From Patescibacteria group bacterium (GTDB lineage: Bacteria > Patescibacteriota > WWE3 > UBA101185 > UBA10185): 40,220 nucleotides of DNA. The translations under genes were made by a program, and so were the position numbers. Positions within the stretch are counted from its first letter, which is position 1. Every line of letters begins with the position of its first letter. The stretch covers positions 128,776 to 168,995 of the forward strand of contig JAFGOI010000004.1 of NCBI GenBank assembly GCA_016926555.1, read 5' to 3'. Under the pieces are notes generated by a model. The model made no database searches, was not told where the DNA came from, and worked only from the letters and a program-made list of their open reading frames with translations. Below, one piece after another: positions 22,877 to 31,002 of this stretch.

Positions 22877-24868
22877 ATGGACCATGCCCAGTTCTGGACG
22901 GTAAAGGATAAAAGGGAATCTATACTAGACAAAATCAATAAGTCTTCTGACCCATTAGGGGAAAATATTATGAACAATAACGATAAAAATAAAAAAATCA
23001 TTAAAGGATTAGGCATTACGGGGATTGTGTTGGTTGTAATCGCACTTATAGTTGCCGGTTTATCATATAAATTTGTAATAAAACCTGCCTATGCGTTAAT
23101 GGCGTCCGCGAACGTTTTGAAAAAGGATACAGCTGATATAGCCGACTCTCTCAAAAACAGAGATTTGGTTACGTTAGAAGAAACTCTGCAGAGAACTGAA
23201 AAAGACTTAACTGATATCAAAAATGAAAGGGAAGATAGTTTCGGCTGGGTGAAAGATATGAACATGTTTAGAGTGAATGAATTTTATGCTGACAGTGAAA
23301 GGTTTATCAACGCAGGATTCTACGCAGTAGATGCTATACGAGAAGTTTCGAATGTAGTAACTCCATTTGCCGATGCGGCAGGATTAAAAGTGTCGGCTGA
23401 TCAGGAAGTAGTGGAAACGGAAGGCTTGATGGAGGCGTTCCAGGGCTGGATTTCCATAATGCCTGAGGTAGCGAATCAGATGGATGGTGTGATTGAGAAA
23501 GTAGCTAAAGTAGGGGAGGAATTGGAGCCTATCGATGTGAGTAAATATCCCGAAGAATTCAAAGGTATTGCCGTGAGGGACAATGTAAAGTTTGTGAAAA
23601 ATACACTTTCAAAAGCGAACGACTATGCCCCGGATGTAAAACAGGCATTACTAATATTACCTAGAGTGCTTGGTGTGGGGGCCGAGCAAGAACTTAGATA
23701 TATGATTATTATGCAAAATGATAAAGAACTACGACCAACCGGGGGTTTTATGACCAATTACGCGACGTTTAAGATGTTTAATGCCGAATTAAAGTCGGAT
23801 TTCACGTCAAAGGATATGTACAGTGTGGATGATACGCTTGACTTGATCGATGCAGCCTATGATTTTCCAGATCCGCCGGAAGCGTACATGAAATATCTCA
23901 AAGTGGAGAGGTGGTATGCGCGTGATATGAACGCGTCCCCTGATTTTGTTCAGTCGATGGATCAATTCCTTGAGTATTACAACATAGCGGGTCAACTTGC
24001 CCCAGCGGTACATAAATCCGTTGACGGAATTTTCTCAATGGATACTTATGTTGTCGAAGAACTTCTCCGAGCTACAGGTCCTGTTACAGTTAACGGAATA
24101 ACTTATACAGAAGATAATGTTGTGCTAGAACTTGAGAAGATAGCTTCTCTGGAGTTGAGAGAACAGCTTCACAGGAAAAAAGTATTAGGAGATTTGATGG
24201 AATCTATGCTTATAAACGTATTTGAGTCTGATAAGAATCTTTGGCCGAAGTTAATTGATAAAGCTATAGATCTGGCTGTGAGGAAGCATATACAAGTGTA
24301 TTTATTTGATGAAGAAGCCCAGGCATTAGTTGAAAAATACGATTTCGGGGGCAGAATAGACAAAGAAGTCGAGGGTGATTACGCGGCAGTTATATCTACC
24401 AACCTGGGGGGAGATAAGACGAACTGGTTTGTTAAGAAAGATGTGACACATGTACTTGAGAAGGAAGGTAATTCATTGATGAGAACAGTGAAAATTAAGT
24501 ACTCCTATATTGAACCTAACGGGGATTATGGTCCCTTTATCAAGAGGTTTAGAGATTGGGTGAGAGTGTATGTTCCCGCAGGGTCGCAAGTTGTATCTGT
24601 TGAAGGTTCCGAGGATGAATCAGTAAACGCAATTGATGAATATTTGAATAAATTCTATATGACTGGGTTTCTGGAACTTGGTCCCGGAGAAGAAAAGGAA
24701 CTTGTATTTAAGTACAGACTGCCTTCCAGTGTGGTTAAAGGTGATGAATATGTTCTAAAACTGCAAAAGCAGTCCGGAATTGATAGAGAAATGCACACTG
24801 TAAAGGTAAATGATAAAACAGTAGAAGTTGATCTATACAGGGATACCGAAGTTAAAATAAAGCTGTGA
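22877..24868 (+). CDS. DUF4012 envelope protein with one N-terminal membrane helix
   Basis: A 663-aa protein. A charged N-terminus of about 45 residues leads to one membrane helix (about 46-68), and the rest lies outside. Residues about 75-200 are helical (coiled-coil-like, NRDLVTLEETLQRTEKDL), as in the DUF4012 N-part. The hallmark LRPTGGFMTNY follows MQNDKE near residue 283. The C-terminal part (about 480-663) is beta-rich with YSYIEPNGDYGPF and ends in a basic tail. DUF4012 proteins are common near glycan genes, but the biochemical role is unknown. The last codons overlap the GTG of recO. There is no stop-to-start gap on either side large enough for a separate promoter. Confidence 0.82.
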   Translation: MDHAQFWTVKDKRESILDKINKSSDPLGENIMNNNDKNKKIIKGLGITGIVLVVIALIVAGLSYKFVIKPAYALMASANVLKKDTADIADSLKNRDLVTLEETLQRTEKDLTDIKNEREDSFGWVKDMNMFRVNEFYADSERFINAGFYAVDAIREVSNVVTPFADAAGLKVSADQEVVETEGLMEAFQGWISIMPEVANQMDGVIEKVAKVGEELEPIDVSKYPEEFKGIAVRDNVKFVKNTLSKANDYAPDVKQALLILPRVLGVGAEQELRYMIIMQNDKELRPTGGFMTNYATFKMFNAELKSDFTSKDMYSVDDTLDLIDAAYDFPDPPEAYMKYLKVERWYARDMNASPDFVQSMDQFLEYYNIAGQLAPAVHKSVDGIFSMDTYVVEELLRATGPVTVNGITYTEDNVVLELEKIASLELREQLHRKKVLGDLMESMLINVFESDKNLWPKLIDKAIDLAVRKHIQVYLFDEEAQALVEKYDFGGRIDKEVEGDYAAVISTNLGGDKTNWFVKKDVTHVLEKEGNSLMRTVKIKYSYIEPNGDYGPFIKRFRDWVRVYVPAGSQVVSVEGSEDESVNAIDEYLNKFYMTGFLELGPGEEKELVFKYRLPSSVVKGDEYVLKLQKQSGIDREMHTVKVNDKTVEVDLYRDTEVKIKL

Positions 24869-25497
24869 GGAAATACAATACTCAAGCAGTTGTACTTAAG
24901 AGCATTAATTATAGAGATTCAGATAGAATATACACTCTTCTTACGAAAGATTATGGTAAATTATCTGCGATTGCGCGTGGTGTAAGAAAGATATCGTCTC
25001 GTCGAAGTGGGAACCTGGATTCCTTAAATTGTGTAAAAGTTAAAATATCTGAGAATGCTTCCGGTTACAGACATATAGATGAAGTAAGTACACTAAATTC
25101 ATATGGCAGTTTAAAATCAAATTATCACAGTCTTATAGCTGCCTATTATGTTGCAGAACTGGTTTATAAATCTCTAGAGGAAGATTCCTCCGCTCAGGAT
25201 GTGTACAACTTGGTTATTAAAACATTAAATTCACTAGAAAAGGACATGTATTTTCCCAAACTAATTGTGGCTAGATTTGAGTTGGCGCTGTTAAAACTTC
25301 TTGGGTATGATGTGAATTACTTATCAAGTCCGGTGTCAAAGGAAGATAAGGATACTTTATCTTTGTTGAGAAGTACTGCTTGGGGTGATTTAGATGATAA
25401 TTCGGTAAATAGAGTTGAGGTGCTAATAAAATCTTATGTCTACACTTTTTTGGCTGATCAGATGAAGAGTCTGGAAATTATGAGACTCTCTTCTTGA
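24865..25497 (+). CDS. recO: DNA repair protein RecO
   Basis: A 210-aa protein. The N-terminal OB fold is clear: YNTQAVVLKSINYRDSDRIYTLLTKDYGKLSAIARGVRK. The helical C-domain follows, with YYVAELVYKSLEEDSSAQDVYNL and FELALLKLLGYDVN. RecO loads RecA on SSB-coated DNA with RecR and anneals strands. It is shorter than the usual 230-250 aa, and the cysteine cluster of many RecO proteins after LGY is missing, so the zinc site is probably absent. It starts with GTG overlapping the DUF4012 stop (GTGA). The TTGACG promoter of glyS overlaps its stop codon. Confidence 0.9.
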   Translation: MRKYNTQAVVLKSINYRDSDRIYTLLTKDYGKLSAIARGVRKISSRRSGNLDSLNCVKVKISENASGYRHIDEVSTLNSYGSLKSNYHSLIAAYYVAELVYKSLEEDSSAQDVYNLVIKTLNSLEKDMYFPKLIVARFELALLKLLGYDVNYLSSPVSKEDKDTLSLLRSTAWGDLDDNSVNRVEVLIKSYVYTFLADQMKSLEIMRLSS

Positions 25498-25522
25498 CGC
25501 TTGATTTGCTTTGTGTTAGCTT
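25494..25522 (+). promoter_or_regulatory. Putative promoter of the glyS T-box transcript
   Basis: TTGACG (25494-25499) overlaps the recO stop, and TAGCTT (25517-25522) lies 17 bp downstream with a TGn extension. The predicted start is near 25529, just before the structured leader. The -10 is a weak match. Confidence 0.45.
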
Positions 25523-25528
25523 CAAAGT

Positions 25529-25663
25529 GTCAATTAAATAGAGCGTTGAAGGGAATTATGGCGCCCCGGAGCTCAAATAAATTAAGCTGTTCTCCCGAGG
25601 ATTTGGGAGGGAAGTAGGGTGGAACCGCCCGAAATGGGTCCCTGCATAAAAGCGGGGATTTTT
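25529..25663 (+). promoter_or_regulatory. Compact T-box riboswitch, glycine type, upstream of glyS
   Basis: The T-box core AGGGTGGAACCGCC is at about 25616-25629. An antiterminator forms from GTAGGG with CCCTGC and GCCC with GGGT, leaving the 7-nt bulge TGGAACC. Its TGGA matches the tRNA-Gly end (discriminator U plus CCA). Stem I is only 25541-25574: GAGC/GCTC, a kink-turn-like GTTGAA/CGGA, then GGG/CCC closing a loop that contains GGC (25560-25562), a glycine codon. A stem III hairpin CTCCC/GGGAG lies at 25592-25609. Uncharged tRNA-Gly would stabilise the antiterminator and switch on glyS. Specifier, bulge and downstream gene all agree on glycine. Confidence 0.88.
25639..25663 (+). terminator. 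Intrinsic terminator of the glyS T-box
   Basis: TCCCTGC, a 6-nt loop, then GCGGGGA and TTTTT: a 7-bp stem with one G-U pair and a T tract. The 5' arm TCCCTGC is the same segment used as the 3' side of the antiterminator, so the two structures exclude each other. Confidence 0.85.
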
Positions 25664-25700
25664 GTTTGTGTAAATATTTTGCCTAAAGGAGTTAGGTATT

Positions 25701-27050
25701 ATGTCAAAAGACGATTCCGTAAAAAAAATAGCGTCTTTGTGCAAAAGGCGCGGATTTGTATATCCTTCATCTGACATATATGGCGGGTGGGAAGCAACGT
25801 ATGATTTTGGTCCTTTAGGTGCGGAAATTCTCAGAAACTTGAGGAATCTTTGGTGGGAGTATTTCGTAACTAAACAACCGGATATTGTTGGATTAGATGG
25901 AGCGATAATATCTCATCCACGTGTTTGGGAGGCAAGTGGCCATGTGGAATCTTTCAATGATGTTATGATTGAGGATTTGGTGACGCATGTAAGATATAGG
26001 GCAGATCACATTGTTGAGGAAGCGTTGGGAATAAATGCTGACGGCTCAACTCCCGAGGAATTTGACGATCTAATTGAAAAGAATAATTTGAAAAGTCCTG
26101 ACGGAAATACTTTGTCAAAAGCAAAAAGGTTTAATAGTTTGGTTGATGTTTATGTAGGTACTCTAGAAAATGAGAAAGAAAAAGCCTATTTAAGAGGTGA
26201 AACCTGCCAGCCGATATTCTATAACTATAAACTTGTCAAAGATTCTATGAGAATGAAATTGCCCTTTGGAATCGCGCAGATAGGAAAGGCCTTCAGAAAT
26301 GAAATAAAAGTTGGTCCGTACTTTTTTAGAACGCGGGAATTCGAACAAATGGAGTTGGAAATGTTTTTACATCCATCTGATCATGAGAAATATTTTGAGA
26401 AGTTTAAAGAGATGAGTATGGAATGGCTTAGAAGTTTAGGAATTGACGAGAATAAACTGCGGTTCCGTGAACAGGAATTCAAAGAAAGAGCTCACTACAA
26501 TAAAGTTGCTACAGATATAGAGTATGAATTTTCTTTTGGATGGAAAGAATTTCAAGGTCTTCATTACAGAGGTGATTGGGATCTAAAAAGACATGGGGAA
26601 TTTTCGGGTGAAGATTTTACATATAAAGATGAAGAAAGAAATGAGGACTATATACCGCATATTGTTGAGTATTCTATTGGTCTAAATCGGCTGATGCTTG
26701 TTCTTCTTTTTGACGCTTACAGAGAAGAAGAAGAACGTGTATACCTGAAACTTGATAGGAAGACAGCGCCATATAGAGTTGCTGTGTTTCCCTTAATGAG
26801 AAATAAGCCAAAGTTGGTTGAGAAGGCTCAACAAATATACAGCAGTTTGTTGAAATTAGGTTTCTCGGTTGCTTGGGATGATAGAGGAAATGTTGGTAAG
26901 AGATATTATTCCCAGGATGAAATCGGGACTCCATATTGCGTGACGGTAGATTATCAAACTCTGGAAGATAATACGGTCACTATTAGAGATCGGGATAGTA
27001 TGGAACAGATCAGGGTGAAGGTATCGGATGTTGAGAATGAGATTCTATAA
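25701..27050 (+). CDS. glyS: Glycyl-tRNA synthetase, class II homodimer type
   Basis: A 449-aa enzyme that charges tRNA-Gly in the cytoplasm. It matches the single-chain (alpha2) GlyRS rather than the GlyQ/GlyS alpha-beta type. It begins VKKIASLCKRRGFVYPSSDIYGG, then YDFGPLGAEILRNLRNLWW, SHPRVWEASGHVESFND (glycine pocket) and motif 2 IGKAFRNEI with RTREFEQMELEMF. Motif 3 lies in VEYSIGLNRLMLVLLFDAY. The anticodon-binding domain begins at PYRVAVFPL. A strong Shine-Dalgarno (AAAGGAG) sits 9 nt before the ATG, in contrast to the leaderless-looking genes elsewhere. It is controlled by the T-box leader just upstream. Confidence 0.96.
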   Translation: MSKDDSVKKIASLCKRRGFVYPSSDIYGGWEATYDFGPLGAEILRNLRNLWWEYFVTKQPDIVGLDGAIISHPRVWEASGHVESFNDVMIEDLVTHVRYRADHIVEEALGINADGSTPEEFDDLIEKNNLKSPDGNTLSKAKRFNSLVDVYVGTLENEKEKAYLRGETCQPIFYNYKLVKDSMRMKLPFGIAQIGKAFRNEIKVGPYFFRTREFEQMELEMFLHPSDHEKYFEKFKEMSMEWLRSLGIDENKLRFREQEFKERAHYNKVATDIEYEFSFGWKEFQGLHYRGDWDLKRHGEFSGEDFTYKDEERNEDYIPHIVEYSIGLNRLMLVLLFDAYREEEERVYLKLDRKTAPYRVAVFPLMRNKPKLVEKAQQIYSSLLKLGFSVAWDDRGNVGKRYYSQDEIGTPYCVTVDYQTLEDNTVTIRDRDSMEQIRVKVSDVENEIL

Positions 27051-27581: not shown

Positions 27582-27995
27582 ATGAAAATGTTTCTTGGAC
27601 AATACAACCCGATAATTACTGACGGATCTCGGATAGTTTTACCGAAAAAACATAGGGAACAGATTCCCGGGGATCAGGTAATTTTATCTCGCGGTTTTGA
27701 GAGCTGTATTTTGGTATACGACAAAAGCGATTGGCAAGACAAAGCTCAGAAGCAGGTTGAAAACTTGAAGGAGTTCAAGACCAGTGATCTTGAGAGATAC
27801 TTGTATACGTCAGCGGTGGAAGTCTCGATTGATGTTCAAGGAAGACTTGTGATTCCCTCTGAGTTGAAAGACTATGCAGGTATAGAAAAGGCAACCTCAG
27901 TGATTGGAGTGGGAGATCACATAGAAATATGGAGCAAACAGACTTGGGAAGATCGCTTTGAAAAGATTACGGAGGAACTAATTGCCCAATTGTAG
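27582..27995 (+). CDS. mraZ: Transcriptional regulator MraZ
   Basis: A 137-aa protein with two AbrB-like SpoVT/MraZ repeats. The first is MFLGQYNPIITDGSRIVLPKKHREQ, the second VSIDVQGRLVIPSELKDYAG, each with the hallmark R-x-x-x-P/R-[LV]-x-[IL]-P element. MraZ forms ring-shaped oligomers, binds repeats before the division/cell-wall cluster and represses it. The second ATG (27588) would give the more usual MFLG start. No Shine-Dalgarno is seen. It lies 2 nt before rsmH, the classical order. Binding-site-like repeats lie upstream. Confidence 0.95.
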   Translation: MKMFLGQYNPIITDGSRIVLPKKHREQIPGDQVILSRGFESCILVYDKSDWQDKAQKQVENLKEFKTSDLERYLYTSAVEVSIDVQGRLVIPSELKDYAGIEKATSVIGVGDHIEIWSKQTWEDRFEKITEELIAQL

Positions 27996-27997
27996 AA

Positions 27998-28879
27998 ATG
28001 GAGTACCACAAGCCAGTATTATTAAGTGAAGTAATAGCACATTTAAAACCTGAAAGAGGAAAAAAGTTTATAGATGCAACGCTGGGTGACGGGGGGCACA
28101 CTGTCGAATTATTAAAATGTGGGGCTGAAGTTCTGGGAATAGACTATAACGAGCAAAGTTTAGAACGGGCTATTTCGAGAGTTGATGGGGAGGGATTAGG
28201 TGCACAATTTACGAGTGTTCTTGGAAATTTTAAGAACATTGACAAAATAGCGGAAGATAATAACTTCAAAAACGTGGATGGCGTTTTGTATGACCTAGGT
28301 TTTAGTTCATATCAAATGGATGAGTCAGGAATCGGGATGTCATTCCAAAAGGATGAACCTCTTGATATGCGTTTAGATAAGTCATTAGGTGTTACAGCGG
28401 CGGATTTAGTAAACGCCTTATCAGAAAAAGAATTGGCAAAGCTTATTTACGAATATTCTGATGAGAGGTTCGCGAAGAAGTTTGCTAAGGCTATAGTGAA
28501 AAGTCGTAATTTGGAGAAGATTCAAACAACTAAACAATTAGCGGAAGTTTTAGTTGGTGCATCTTCTTCAGCGTACGAACATGGAAGAATTCATCCGGCC
28601 ACCCGAACTTTCATGGCGCTTCGTATAGCTGTAAATGACGAACTTGAAAATCTGAGAATATCACTGCCTCGGGCTGCGCACACACTGTCGTCTGGTGGCT
28701 TTTTGATAGTAATAACCTTCCATTCATTGGAAGACAAACTGGCCAAGGAGTTTGGCCATAGTGCGCAGCCCATTATAAAAGAAGTAAATCAGAGACCCAT
28801 TACCCCTTCGGAAGAAGAGGTGACGGCAAACATACGTGCAAGAAGCGCTAAGATGCGTGTTTATGTTAAAGAAAACTAA
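27998..28879 (+). CDS. rsmH: 16S rRNA (cytosine(1402)-N(4))-methyltransferase RsmH
   Basis: A 293-aa SAM-dependent methyltransferase (MraW) that modifies C1402 in the ribosomal decoding centre. It begins EYHKPVLLSEVIAHL, followed by the motif FIDATLGDGGHTVELL, VLGIDYNEQ, then DGVLYDLGFSSYQMDESGIGMSF and the C-terminal HPATRTFMALRIAVNDELENL and ITFHSLEDKLAKEF. All family blocks are present. Length is near the family's roughly 310 aa. It overlaps the next gene by 17 nt. Confidence 0.97.
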   Translation: MEYHKPVLLSEVIAHLKPERGKKFIDATLGDGGHTVELLKCGAEVLGIDYNEQSLERAISRVDGEGLGAQFTSVLGNFKNIDKIAEDNNFKNVDGVLYDLGFSSYQMDESGIGMSFQKDEPLDMRLDKSLGVTAADLVNALSEKELAKLIYEYSDERFAKKFAKAIVKSRNLEKIQTTKQLAEVLVGASSSAYEHGRIHPATRTFMALRIAVNDELENLRISLPRAAHTLSSGGFLIVITFHSLEDKLAKEFGHSAQPIIKEVNQRPITPSEEEVTANIRARSAKMRVYVKEN

Positions 28880-29225
28880 ATGCTTAAAAGTAAATATAGA
28901 TAGCGGGAGGAGTTTTAAGGTTCTATTTATACTATCTTTCATACTATTTACAGGGTGTATTGTGGGTCGTTTGTACTGTTCTAGCAGTATGGCAGTGAAA
29001 AACCAGGAATTACAGCAGTATTATTCAAGAAAAGCTACTCTGGAAAAGACTCTGTCTCTATTAGAATTTGAGAGTTCAAGTATTTCGTCAATAAAAGCTT
29101 TAGAGGAAAGGGCCAAAAACATGGGTTTTGTGACGTTAGCAGAATCGGTATCACTTCTGGATACAAGTGGAGCGGATCAATTTGCTTCCCTAAATATGTC
29201 GTCTGACTTTAACTTAGGGAGGTAA
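28863..29225 (+). CDS. ftsL: FtsL-like division protein
   Basis: A protein of about 120 aa with one membrane helix (about residues 18-37, VLFILSFILFTGCIVGRLY). An outside coiled-coil segment follows, NQELQQYYSRKATLEKTLSLLEFESSSI, and then a short KALEERAKNMGFV element, as in FtsL/DivIC proteins. These stabilise the FtsQLB complex and activate FtsI/FtsW. Sequence identity is weak in this family. The call rests on topology and on its place between rsmH and ftsI. I start at ATG 28863, not the track's 28836, giving a 17-nt overlap with rsmH. Confidence 0.75.
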   Translation: MLKKTKCLKVNIDSGRSFKVLFILSFILFTGCIVGRLYCSSSMAVKNQELQQYYSRKATLEKTLSLLEFESSSISSIKALEERAKNMGFVTLAESVSLLDTSGADQFASLNMSSDFNLGR

Positions 29226-29229
29226 TTGA

Positions 29230-31002
29230 ATGCAAAGAGAAACACTTCCTACTTCTCGTATAAAAATAATATTGCTGGGATTTTATTTGATTTACCTCCT
29301 GGTTGTATTTCGTCTAATAAAATTGCAGTTAATTGATCATAAGAAGTACACTTCGGATGCAGAAAATCAGTACGGCAACCTTCAAATTATCAATCCAAAA
29401 AGAGGGAATATATACTCGTCAGAAGGTTTTGTACTGGCGGGAACCAGTACACATTATTTGTTGTATGCGGAGCCGAAAAAGGTTGTGAACCGGTATGATA
29501 CTGCGAGAAGAGTTGCGGAAGTTCTTTCTTCAGGTGGCGTAGAATATGAAAAATATGAGGATTATTACAGGGACAAAATTAATAATTCCCTTAATTTAGA
29601 TCTTTTATGGGTTGTATTGGAAAGAAATATTAGCCCTGTTAAAAAGGAAGAAATTGAAGGGCTTGAAATAAAAGGTCTGGGATTTGAAGAAGAACCTGCC
29701 CGTTACTATCCTGAGGGGTCACTAGCCGCGCATGTTTTAGGATATGTAGCTCAGAACGAGTCTGGTGAAAAAACTGGGTATTATGGGGTTGAAGGTATGT
29801 TGAACGAGGATCTGAAGGGGAAACCAGGTCGAGTAATTCAGGATGTAGATGCTATGGGTATTCCGATTCTTTCTGGTAAATATAAAAAGGTAGATCCAAT
29901 TCAGGGAAGGGATGTTTACTTGACTATTGACAGATCTATTCAGTATATCGTTGAAAAGAAGATAAAAGAAGGGGTTGAAAAGTATAATGCCTTGTCCGGG
30001 TCCGTTATAGTGATGAACCCGTTTACGGGGGATGTGTTGGCTATGGCAAACTTTCCAACTTATTCTCCGGGTAACTTCCTGGAGGAGGAGACGCATCTAC
30101 CTGATTCCGATAGGAAAAATATCGAGAGGGTCAACTTTTCTGTTTCACGTACTTTTGAGCCGGGATCCGTTATTAAACCGGTTACGATAGCGGCCGGTAT
30201 CGATTTGCACCTGATTAACCCAAACACAACGTTTTATGATAACGGACCTGTGCAGTATTCCGACTATACAATAGATAATTGGGATGGAAAACATCATGGC
30301 GCGCAAACAGTAATACAGTTGCTTCAAAAATCTAATAACATAGGTGCAGCGTGGGTTGGGCATCAAGTGGGGTCGAAAAATCTACATGATTATATGGATG
30401 CCTTTGGCTTGGGGAGGATTACTGAGATAGAACTGGAGGGTGAGAATACGGGGATACTACATGATTATAAGGATTGGACTGATATTGATTTGGCTACTAT
30501 ATCATTTGGTCAAGGTATATCGGCTACTTCTCTTCAGGTTTTAAATGCTTTTAATGTGATTGCGAATGGAGGTTATTTATTGCAGCCAAGAATAATTAAG
30601 GAGATCCATGAAGTTGATGACGTGATAGAAATTCCAACAAAAAATCTGGGCAGAGTTATTAATACTGAAACATCCGCAACTATGATAAAACTTTTGGAGG
30701 AGGCTGCGTCTGGTGGCGAAGCAAAGTACTTTATTCTCAAAAATTATAGGATTGCAGGGAAAACGGGTACAGCTCAGATACCGGATGAAAAGGGAGGATA
30801 CTACGAAGATAAAACTAATGCAACGTTTGTTGGTTTCGTGGCTAGATCCAAGAAGTTCAGTATGATAGTAAATCTTCAAGAACCAAAGGCATCTATATAC
30901 GCTTCGGAGACGGCCGTTCCACTTTGGATGGAGATTACTCAGGAACTTGTTAAATCGTTTGGGCTTCCTCCCGATCGTGCGGATCTTGAGAATCTGGAGT
31001 AA
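29230..31002 (+). CDS. ftsI: Peptidoglycan transpeptidase FtsI / class B penicillin-binding protein
   Basis: A 590-aa class B PBP that cross-links septal peptidoglycan outside the membrane. An N-terminal helix is at about residues 10-30, followed by a PBP dimer domain (NPKRGNIYSSEG, and GYYGVEGMLNEDLKGKPG). Transpeptidase motifs: SVIK in FEPGSVIKP near 313 (catalytic Ser), SNN near 368, and KTGT in AGKTGTAQIP near 511. No PASTA repeats. GGGAGG lies 7 nt before the ATG, a good Shine-Dalgarno. It is the last gene of the mraZ cluster here. mraY, murD/E/F and ftsW are not next to it. Confidence 0.95.
   Translation: MQRETLPTSRIKIILLGFYLIYLLVVFRLIKLQLIDHKKYTSDAENQYGNLQIINPKRGNIYSSEGFVLAGTSTHYLLYAEPKKVVNRYDTARRVAEVLSSGGVEYEKYEDYYRDKINNSLNLDLLWVVLERNISPVKKEEIEGLEIKGLGFEEEPARYYPEGSLAAHVLGYVAQNESGEKTGYYGVEGMLNEDLKGKPGRVIQDVDAMGIPILSGKYKKVDPIQGRDVYLTIDRSIQYIVEKKIKEGVEKYNALSGSVIVMNPFTGDVLAMANFPTYSPGNFLEEETHLPDSDRKNIERVNFSVSRTFEPGSVIKPVTIAAGIDLHLINPNTTFYDNGPVQYSDYTIDNWDGKHHGAQTVIQLLQKSNNIGAAWVGHQVGSKNLHDYMDAFGLGRITEIELEGENTGILHDYKDWTDIDLATISFGQGISATSLQVLNAFNVIANGGYLLQPRIIKEIHEVDDVIEIPTKNLGRVINTETSATMIKLLEEAASGGEAKYFILKNYRIAGKTGTAQIPDEKGGYYEDKTNATFVGFVARSKKFSMIVNLQEPKASIYASETAVPLWMEITQELVKSFGLPPDRADLENLE

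Follow-up and report, generated by a model that had tools for sequence, protein, structure and literature searches.

The window examined here is a 40,220-nt stretch of DNA (G000:C7:128776-168995) from an 872-kb genome assembly that is 92% complete. It carries a plus-strand gene for a dimeric glycine--tRNA ligase (glyS), whose product has its nearest named relative in WWE3 bacterium GW2011_GWB1_41_6 (73% identity); judged from this enzyme, the genome belongs to a WWE3-type CPR bacterium of the same family as that organism. Both the glyS assignment and the view that the DNA came from a likely CPR bacterium had been put forward in an earlier reading of the letters alone (the sequence-only reading), and both are borne out, the first by a match to NCBIfam NF003211 and the second by the GlyRS relative. 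The upstream gene is recO, whose end at 25497 limits the possible 5' extent of the glycine T-box leader that occupies positions 25541-25667, 34 nt upstream of glyS. The start codon of glyS is immediately preceded by a small inverted repeat, CCUAA-AGGAG-UUAGG (25680-25696), within which the ribosome site AAAGGAG lies, and the gene is followed by a division and cell-wall cluster including mraZ, rsmH and a penicillin-binding protein (27582-31002).

Anatomy of the glyS leader

The features of the locus, all on the plus strand, are as follows.

24865-25497, plus: recO, the gene upstream of the leader (TIGR00613, 116.5 bits)
25494-25522, plus: weak promoter candidate TTGACG-N17-TAGCTT (8 of 12 matches)
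25541-25574, plus: ultrashort Stem I, 34 nt (read from the sequence; covariation in CPR relatives)
25541-25544 with 25571-25574, plus: Stem I base helix GAGC/GCUC (sequence)
25545-25549 and 25569-25570, plus: Stem I K-turn GUU-GA/GA, with GUU bulge and tandem GA (sequence)
25551-25553 with 25565-25567, plus: Stem I hairpin GGG/CCC, 3 bp, above the K-turn (sequence)
25560-25562, plus: specifier GGC (glycine codon) in the apical loop (the loop context recurs with GGC in 13 of 14 CPR glyS genomes and with GGA in the other)
25575-25589, plus: purine-rich linker, 15 nt, where Stem II would be (sequence)
25590-25611, plus: Stem III UUCUCCC/GGGAGGG (MFE fold)
25616-25643, plus: antiterminator, with A1 AGGG/CCCU, a 7-nt bulge and A2 GCCC/GGGU (RF00230 alignment; all pairs kept in relatives)
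25620-25626, plus: T-box bulge UGGAACC (UGGA in all CPR glyS leaders)
25636-25661, plus: intrinsic terminator stem-loop (terminator scan; -13.0 kcal/mol; U-tract to 25667)
25701-27050, plus: glyS, dimeric glycine--tRNA ligase (NCBIfam NF003211, 577 bits; TIGR00389, 463 bits; both above cut-off)

Stem I of the window leader reads GAGC / GUU-GA / A / GGG / AAUUAUGGCGC / CCC / G-GA / GCUC and forms one hairpin, with the specifier GGC in its apical loop of about 11 nt, AAUUAUGGCGC. Canonical specifier loops carry a purine after the specifier, and here G25563 lies directly 3' of GGC. The K-turn and hairpin proposed in the sequence-only reading stand with one amendment, namely that the first C of the CCCC run is most likely in the loop, since the K-turn register then matches that of canonical T-boxes. 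The T-box helices start at 25541 rather than at 25529, the first position of the extent given there (25529-25663). The 15-nt linker is too short for Stem II or Stem IIA/B; it carries AAGCUG ahead of Stem III, a string that matches RRRxG only with one extra base. Stem III is directly followed by AA (25612-25613), as the T-box kind requires.

The antiterminator is AGGG-UGGAACC-GCCC-GAAAU-GGGU-CCCU, in which A2 ends in a conserved G-U pair and the bulge fits the T-box requirement for a 7-nt UGGNACC complementary to the tRNA 3' end. The terminator, GGGUCCCUGC-AUAAAA-GCGGGGAUUU, is built in part from the 3' strands of A1 and A2, the CCCU strand being common to both structures. In the absence of tRNA, forcing the antiterminator costs 8.1 kcal/mol relative to the terminator fold (-38.7 versus -46.8 kcal/mol); a default-off state without tRNA is usual in T-boxes. 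All the elements named in the sequence-only reading (an antiterminator, a competing terminator, a UGGA bulge and a GGC in an apical loop) are found in the window, and its interpretation as a terminator-coupled glycine T-box is supported. Neither the distal Stem I module (IDTM) nor Stem II is present in the window leader, with its 34-nt Stem I and 15-nt linker. That reading had dwelt on the short Stem I and did not mention the loss of Stem II; the joint absence of the two elements is the more surprising point.

A search with the Rfam T-box model RF00230, suggested in the sequence-only reading, matched the leader from one end of the model to the other (25537-25646; 36.3 bits; E 1.1e-6 in a local scan, 6.1e-7 for the genome). 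The gathering score of 93 bits is not reached, and the window has no match at that threshold; relative to the model, the end-to-end alignment lacks about 80 distal Stem I positions and 40 positions of the Stem II region. The fold of the leader is 2.4 sd better than shuffles. From the end-to-end alignment and the comparison of the fold with shuffles, the leader elements are more than chance. The promoter candidate is no better than shuffles (292 of 500) and is not reported by the promoter scan.

Ultracompact leaders in related genomes

T-boxes were found in 14 of the 27 genomes of the host family and in 24 of the 45 genomes of its class. Ultracompact leaders lie upstream of glyS in five genomes of the class (the host G000, G002, G012, G029 and G034); the leader of G012 has GGA, shifted by one base, in place of the GGC of the other four. 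Within the host family, 22 of 25 glyS genes lack such a leader. Upstream of many family glyS genes without a T-box (regions L026-L050), a TATACT-like box sits a few bases or less from the ATG, an arrangement that leaderless or near-leaderless mRNAs would be expected to show.

The three pairs of the Stem I hairpin differ between the window and three class relatives (GGG/CCC, GGU/ACC, CAC/GUG and GAG/CUC). When these four leaders were aligned without structure, all 3 hairpin pairs showed two-sided changes and 98% of cells were paired, against at most 60% in the slid-partner control; the covariation score was 0.359 versus a shuffled mean of 0.121 (none of 500 shuffles reached 0.359), and slid partners gave at most 0.103. 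A covariance model built from four class leaders (R1) and run on 380 CPR genomes gave matches in 71 of them at E <=0.01, E-values of such home-made models being rough; weak R1 matches, including those in G006 and G009, lie outside the inspected set. Ultracompact leaders directly before glyS were identified in other CPR lineages (G222, G302, G383, G322, G251, G386), as well as in genomes named Candidatus Magasanikbacteria (L079) and Candidatus Nealsonbacteria (L129). Another genome, G210, has two ultracompact glycine T-boxes in tandem (L194:1336-1616), upstream of a small ORF (109 aa) and glyS.

Altogether, in a phylum sample supplemented by 80 named loci, glyS-linked ultracompact leaders are present in at least 14 CPR genomes, with UGGA in 14 of 14 and GGC in 13 of 14. 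For G034, G386 and L129, which the script missed or mis-parsed, Stem I was identified by visual inspection, and G046 was left out because its leader lies about 0.9 kb before glyS. In an alignment of 13 leaders to R1, which leans to structure by construction, 10 of 13 pairs showed two-sided changes and 98.8% of cells were paired, while slid controls reached only 55%; Stem III pairs were left out of the pair counts. Leaders of this family span 83-115 nt. The RRRxG string is present in most relatives, and Stem II is absent from the window and from the inspected CPR glyS leaders alike. In 10 of 15 leaders, a sigma-70-type promoter (TTGACA/TATAAT) has its 3' end 3-15 nt ahead of Stem I, and in 9 of 15 it is a good one with at least 10 of 12 matches; the position of these promoters directly upstream of Stem I leaves no room for a hidden 5' domain.

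The comparison among relatives that the sequence-only reading had called for therefore comes out in its favour: related glyS leaders exist, GGC is kept, GAGC/GCUC and GGG/CCC covary, and all pairs of the antiterminator arms are retained. Its model of an ultrashort 34-nt Stem I with a base helix, a K-turn and a three-pair hairpin is accordingly upheld by both sequence and covariation. A minimal, terminator-coupled glycine form outside Firmicutes, as it had proposed, also holds, although not as a unique case, since ultracompact glyS leaders occur in these 14 or more CPR genomes, several of them with terminators, and similar leaders precede other synthetase genes. The parts of the window leader, their order and overlap, their covariation and their link to the gene are matters of direct observation.

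Two alternative explanations can be weighed at this point. The patchy presence across the family, together with the low Rfam score, the weak promoter and the purine-string deviation, would fit a decayed T-box that has kept its discriminator, with Stem I a non-functional remnant and attenuation constitutive. Leader-less glyS genes of the family invite that view; we rejected it because of the covariation across other CPR families, and compensatory changes in both Stem I helices, with a specifier that either persists or switches with the gene, recur in many CPR families, which makes decay very unlikely. A plain terminator or attenuator with no connection to tRNA would account for the terminator present in the window and leave unexplained the conserved AGGGUGGAACCGC core, the UGGA and the synthetase genes downstream, and we regard it as barely credible.

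Specifiers, tRNA and the mode of control

The specifier loop keeps a near-constant frame, U-[NNN]-R-N, across ultrashort CPR Stem I structures. The loop trinucleotide is GGC (once GGA) in glyS leaders, AAC before aspS (G289), GUC before valS (G145, where the leader is 83 nt), ACC before thrS (G072, G398, G399) and AGC before serS (G034); synthetase identities of representative loci were checked with NCBIfam. The bulge tracks the tRNA, being UGGA for Gly and Thr, UGGC for Asp/Asn and Ser, and UGGU for Val. In the host genome, tRNA-Gly(UCC) and tRNA-Gly(CCC), the only glycine tRNAs among the RF00005 matches, end in UCCA, complementary to UGGA. Neither RF00005 nor three patterns found the cognate of GGC, tRNA-Gly(GCC), in the 92%-complete assembly; the 31 tRNA matches of the host likewise include no Met, Phe or Asn gene, the assembly being incomplete or the genes interrupted. 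Elsewhere, a pattern match in G386 is tRNA-Gly(GCC), and one in G012, situated at the end of a contig, is a match that ARAGORN did not confirm as a gene.

A second T-box of the host genome (L002; G000:C7:32676-32829) precedes the gene for a non-discriminating aspartate--tRNA(Asn) ligase and has GAC in a short Stem I loop, with a terminator. Among CPR aspS leaders, AAC (Asn) is found in L150, L069 and L197, and GAC (Asp) in L002 and L151; either tRNA would be a sensible signal because the enzyme is non-discriminating.

Terminators that overlap the A1 3' strand and are followed by U's were found in the window, G222, G302, G383, G322, G251 (weak), G386 and L129, which brings glyS leaders with an overlapping terminator to at least eight CPR genomes; the valS leader of G145 has one too. 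In L079, a hairpin with U7 is visible by eye, and the script recovers no overlap. No clear terminator was found in G002, G012, G029 or G034, the four members nearest to the window, and no overlapping terminator was recovered for G210. Pairing of the 3' strand across the ribosome site is possible in G012 and in the second G210 leader. The lack of a clear terminator in the four nearest members makes translational control likely in at least some of them, and the family as a whole appears from its sequences to mix transcriptional and translational control, the window leader belonging to the transcriptional part.

If the window leader itself acted mainly on translation, its 3' helices would hide the ribosome site and the U-tailed hairpin would be incidental. 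The pairing of the 3' region with the ribosome site in G012 and the second G210 leader, the absence of a U-tract terminator from G002, G012 and G029, and the translational action of actinobacterial ultrashort forms (PMC7583486) are compatible with this. In the window, however, UUUUUGUUU follows the hairpin, which shares sequence with A1 and is separated by 24 nt from the ribosome site downstream (25685-25691), and the terminators of several distant relatives are stronger, with 5-7 consecutive U; we therefore hold a mainly translational role to be improbable.

Our preferred reading, which we consider very probable, is that the leader is a tRNA-Gly-sensing T-box riboswitch that attenuates glyS transcription. 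From the features above, we infer that it binds tRNA, senses its charge and allows read-through. While RNA polymerase moves off the promoter, the 34-nt Stem I would fold and present GGC to the anticodon of tRNA-Gly, and the K-turn would fold back toward the discriminator. The UCCA end of an uncharged tRNA would then pair with UGGA and stabilise A1/A2, thereby withholding the CCCU strand from the terminator, so that glyS would be transcribed. On a charged tRNA, glycine would prevent this docking, and the terminator would form. With neither a distal module nor Stem II, specifier-anticodon pairing, aided by strong G-C pairs, and the contact with the tRNA 3' end would have to carry the binding, perhaps helped by the purine-rich linker or by a K-turn protein. 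Several points speak against the riboswitch reading: an Rfam score far below gathering, the weak promoter of the window, the one-base deviation in the purine string, the failure to find tRNA-Gly(GCC), the absence of the leader from 22 of 25 glyS genes of the family, and the published requirement for a distal module or Stem II (PMC7583486).

Relation to described T-box classes and wider occurrence

Four classes of T-box have been described, in which tRNA binding is augmented by a distal double T-loop module, by a Stem II S-turn, or by both (PMC10482949). Transcriptional T-boxes generally need the distal module in order to capture tRNA in time, and Stem II is essential where that module is naturally absent (PMC7583486). 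The window leader resembles class II (Bacillus subtilis glyQS type) in its glycine specificity, single-stranded linker, lack of Stem II, K-turn, Stem III, UGGA bulge and transcription terminator (PMC10482949). Unlike class II, its Stem I ends just above the specifier, lacking both a C-loop and a distal double T-loop module, and GGC is in the apical loop rather than in an internal loop of a long Stem I. With class III (Nocardia / Mycobacterium ileS type), it shares an ultrashort Stem I, an apical specifier and the absence of a distal module (PMC10482949). Class III T-boxes, in contrast, are isoleucine-specific in the cited examples, need Stem II and are mostly translational, and their loop is 5-6 nt, where the window leader has about 11 nt and its relatives have 6-11 nt. 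Class I differs in its long Stem I, IDTM and Stem II. By its sequence, the window leader lacks a defining feature of each class and combines class II-like working with a class III-like Stem I.

With neither the distal module nor Stem II, it would be a variant outside the four published classes that appears to have lost both known add-on tRNA grips, which suggests that T-box switches can be smaller than those classes allow. We think it likely that these leaders constitute a fifth architectural class, common in CPR and serving several amino acids, in which the K-turn hairpin alone would read the anticodon and transcription would be controlled without accessory contacts. Natural leaders of 83-115 nt without either contact would define a minimal tRNA-charge sensor, open the rule on reinforced specifier-anticodon pairing to a direct test and supply a compact part for use in engineering.

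In Bacillota, the glycine T-boxes found upstream of dimeric glyS genes have a long Stem I, and six of them exceed the Rfam cut-off (163-180 nt). Matches of another model, R2, in this phylum were rejected as ultracompact leaders, since each takes in just the 3' half of a long Stem I. A possible exception is a short-Stem-I glycine leader before glyS in the Bacilli MAG Lapin-033 bin8 (L092:1372-1477), and the reduction of Stem I may thus extend beyond CPR.

Among 380 Patescibacteria genomes, 116 have RF00230 matches at E <=1e-5, and only 13 pass the gathering score; routine annotation would therefore miss most CPR T-boxes, and a level of gene regulation in these bacteria seems to have been overlooked. 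Within the open-access literature, we found no paper joining T-boxes or natural riboswitch surveys with CPR/Patescibacteria. TBDB handled sequences with a truncated Stem I with its class II model (PMC7778990), so that single cases may already be catalogued. In several CPR loci, a T-box and then a terminator precede a tRNA gene, namely tRNA-His in L019:1490-1872 and L013:1480-1842 (CAC specifier; G007 and G013) and tRNA-Trp in L153:770-1113 (UGG specifier; G042), an arrangement that looks like control of a tRNA gene by its own uncharged product.
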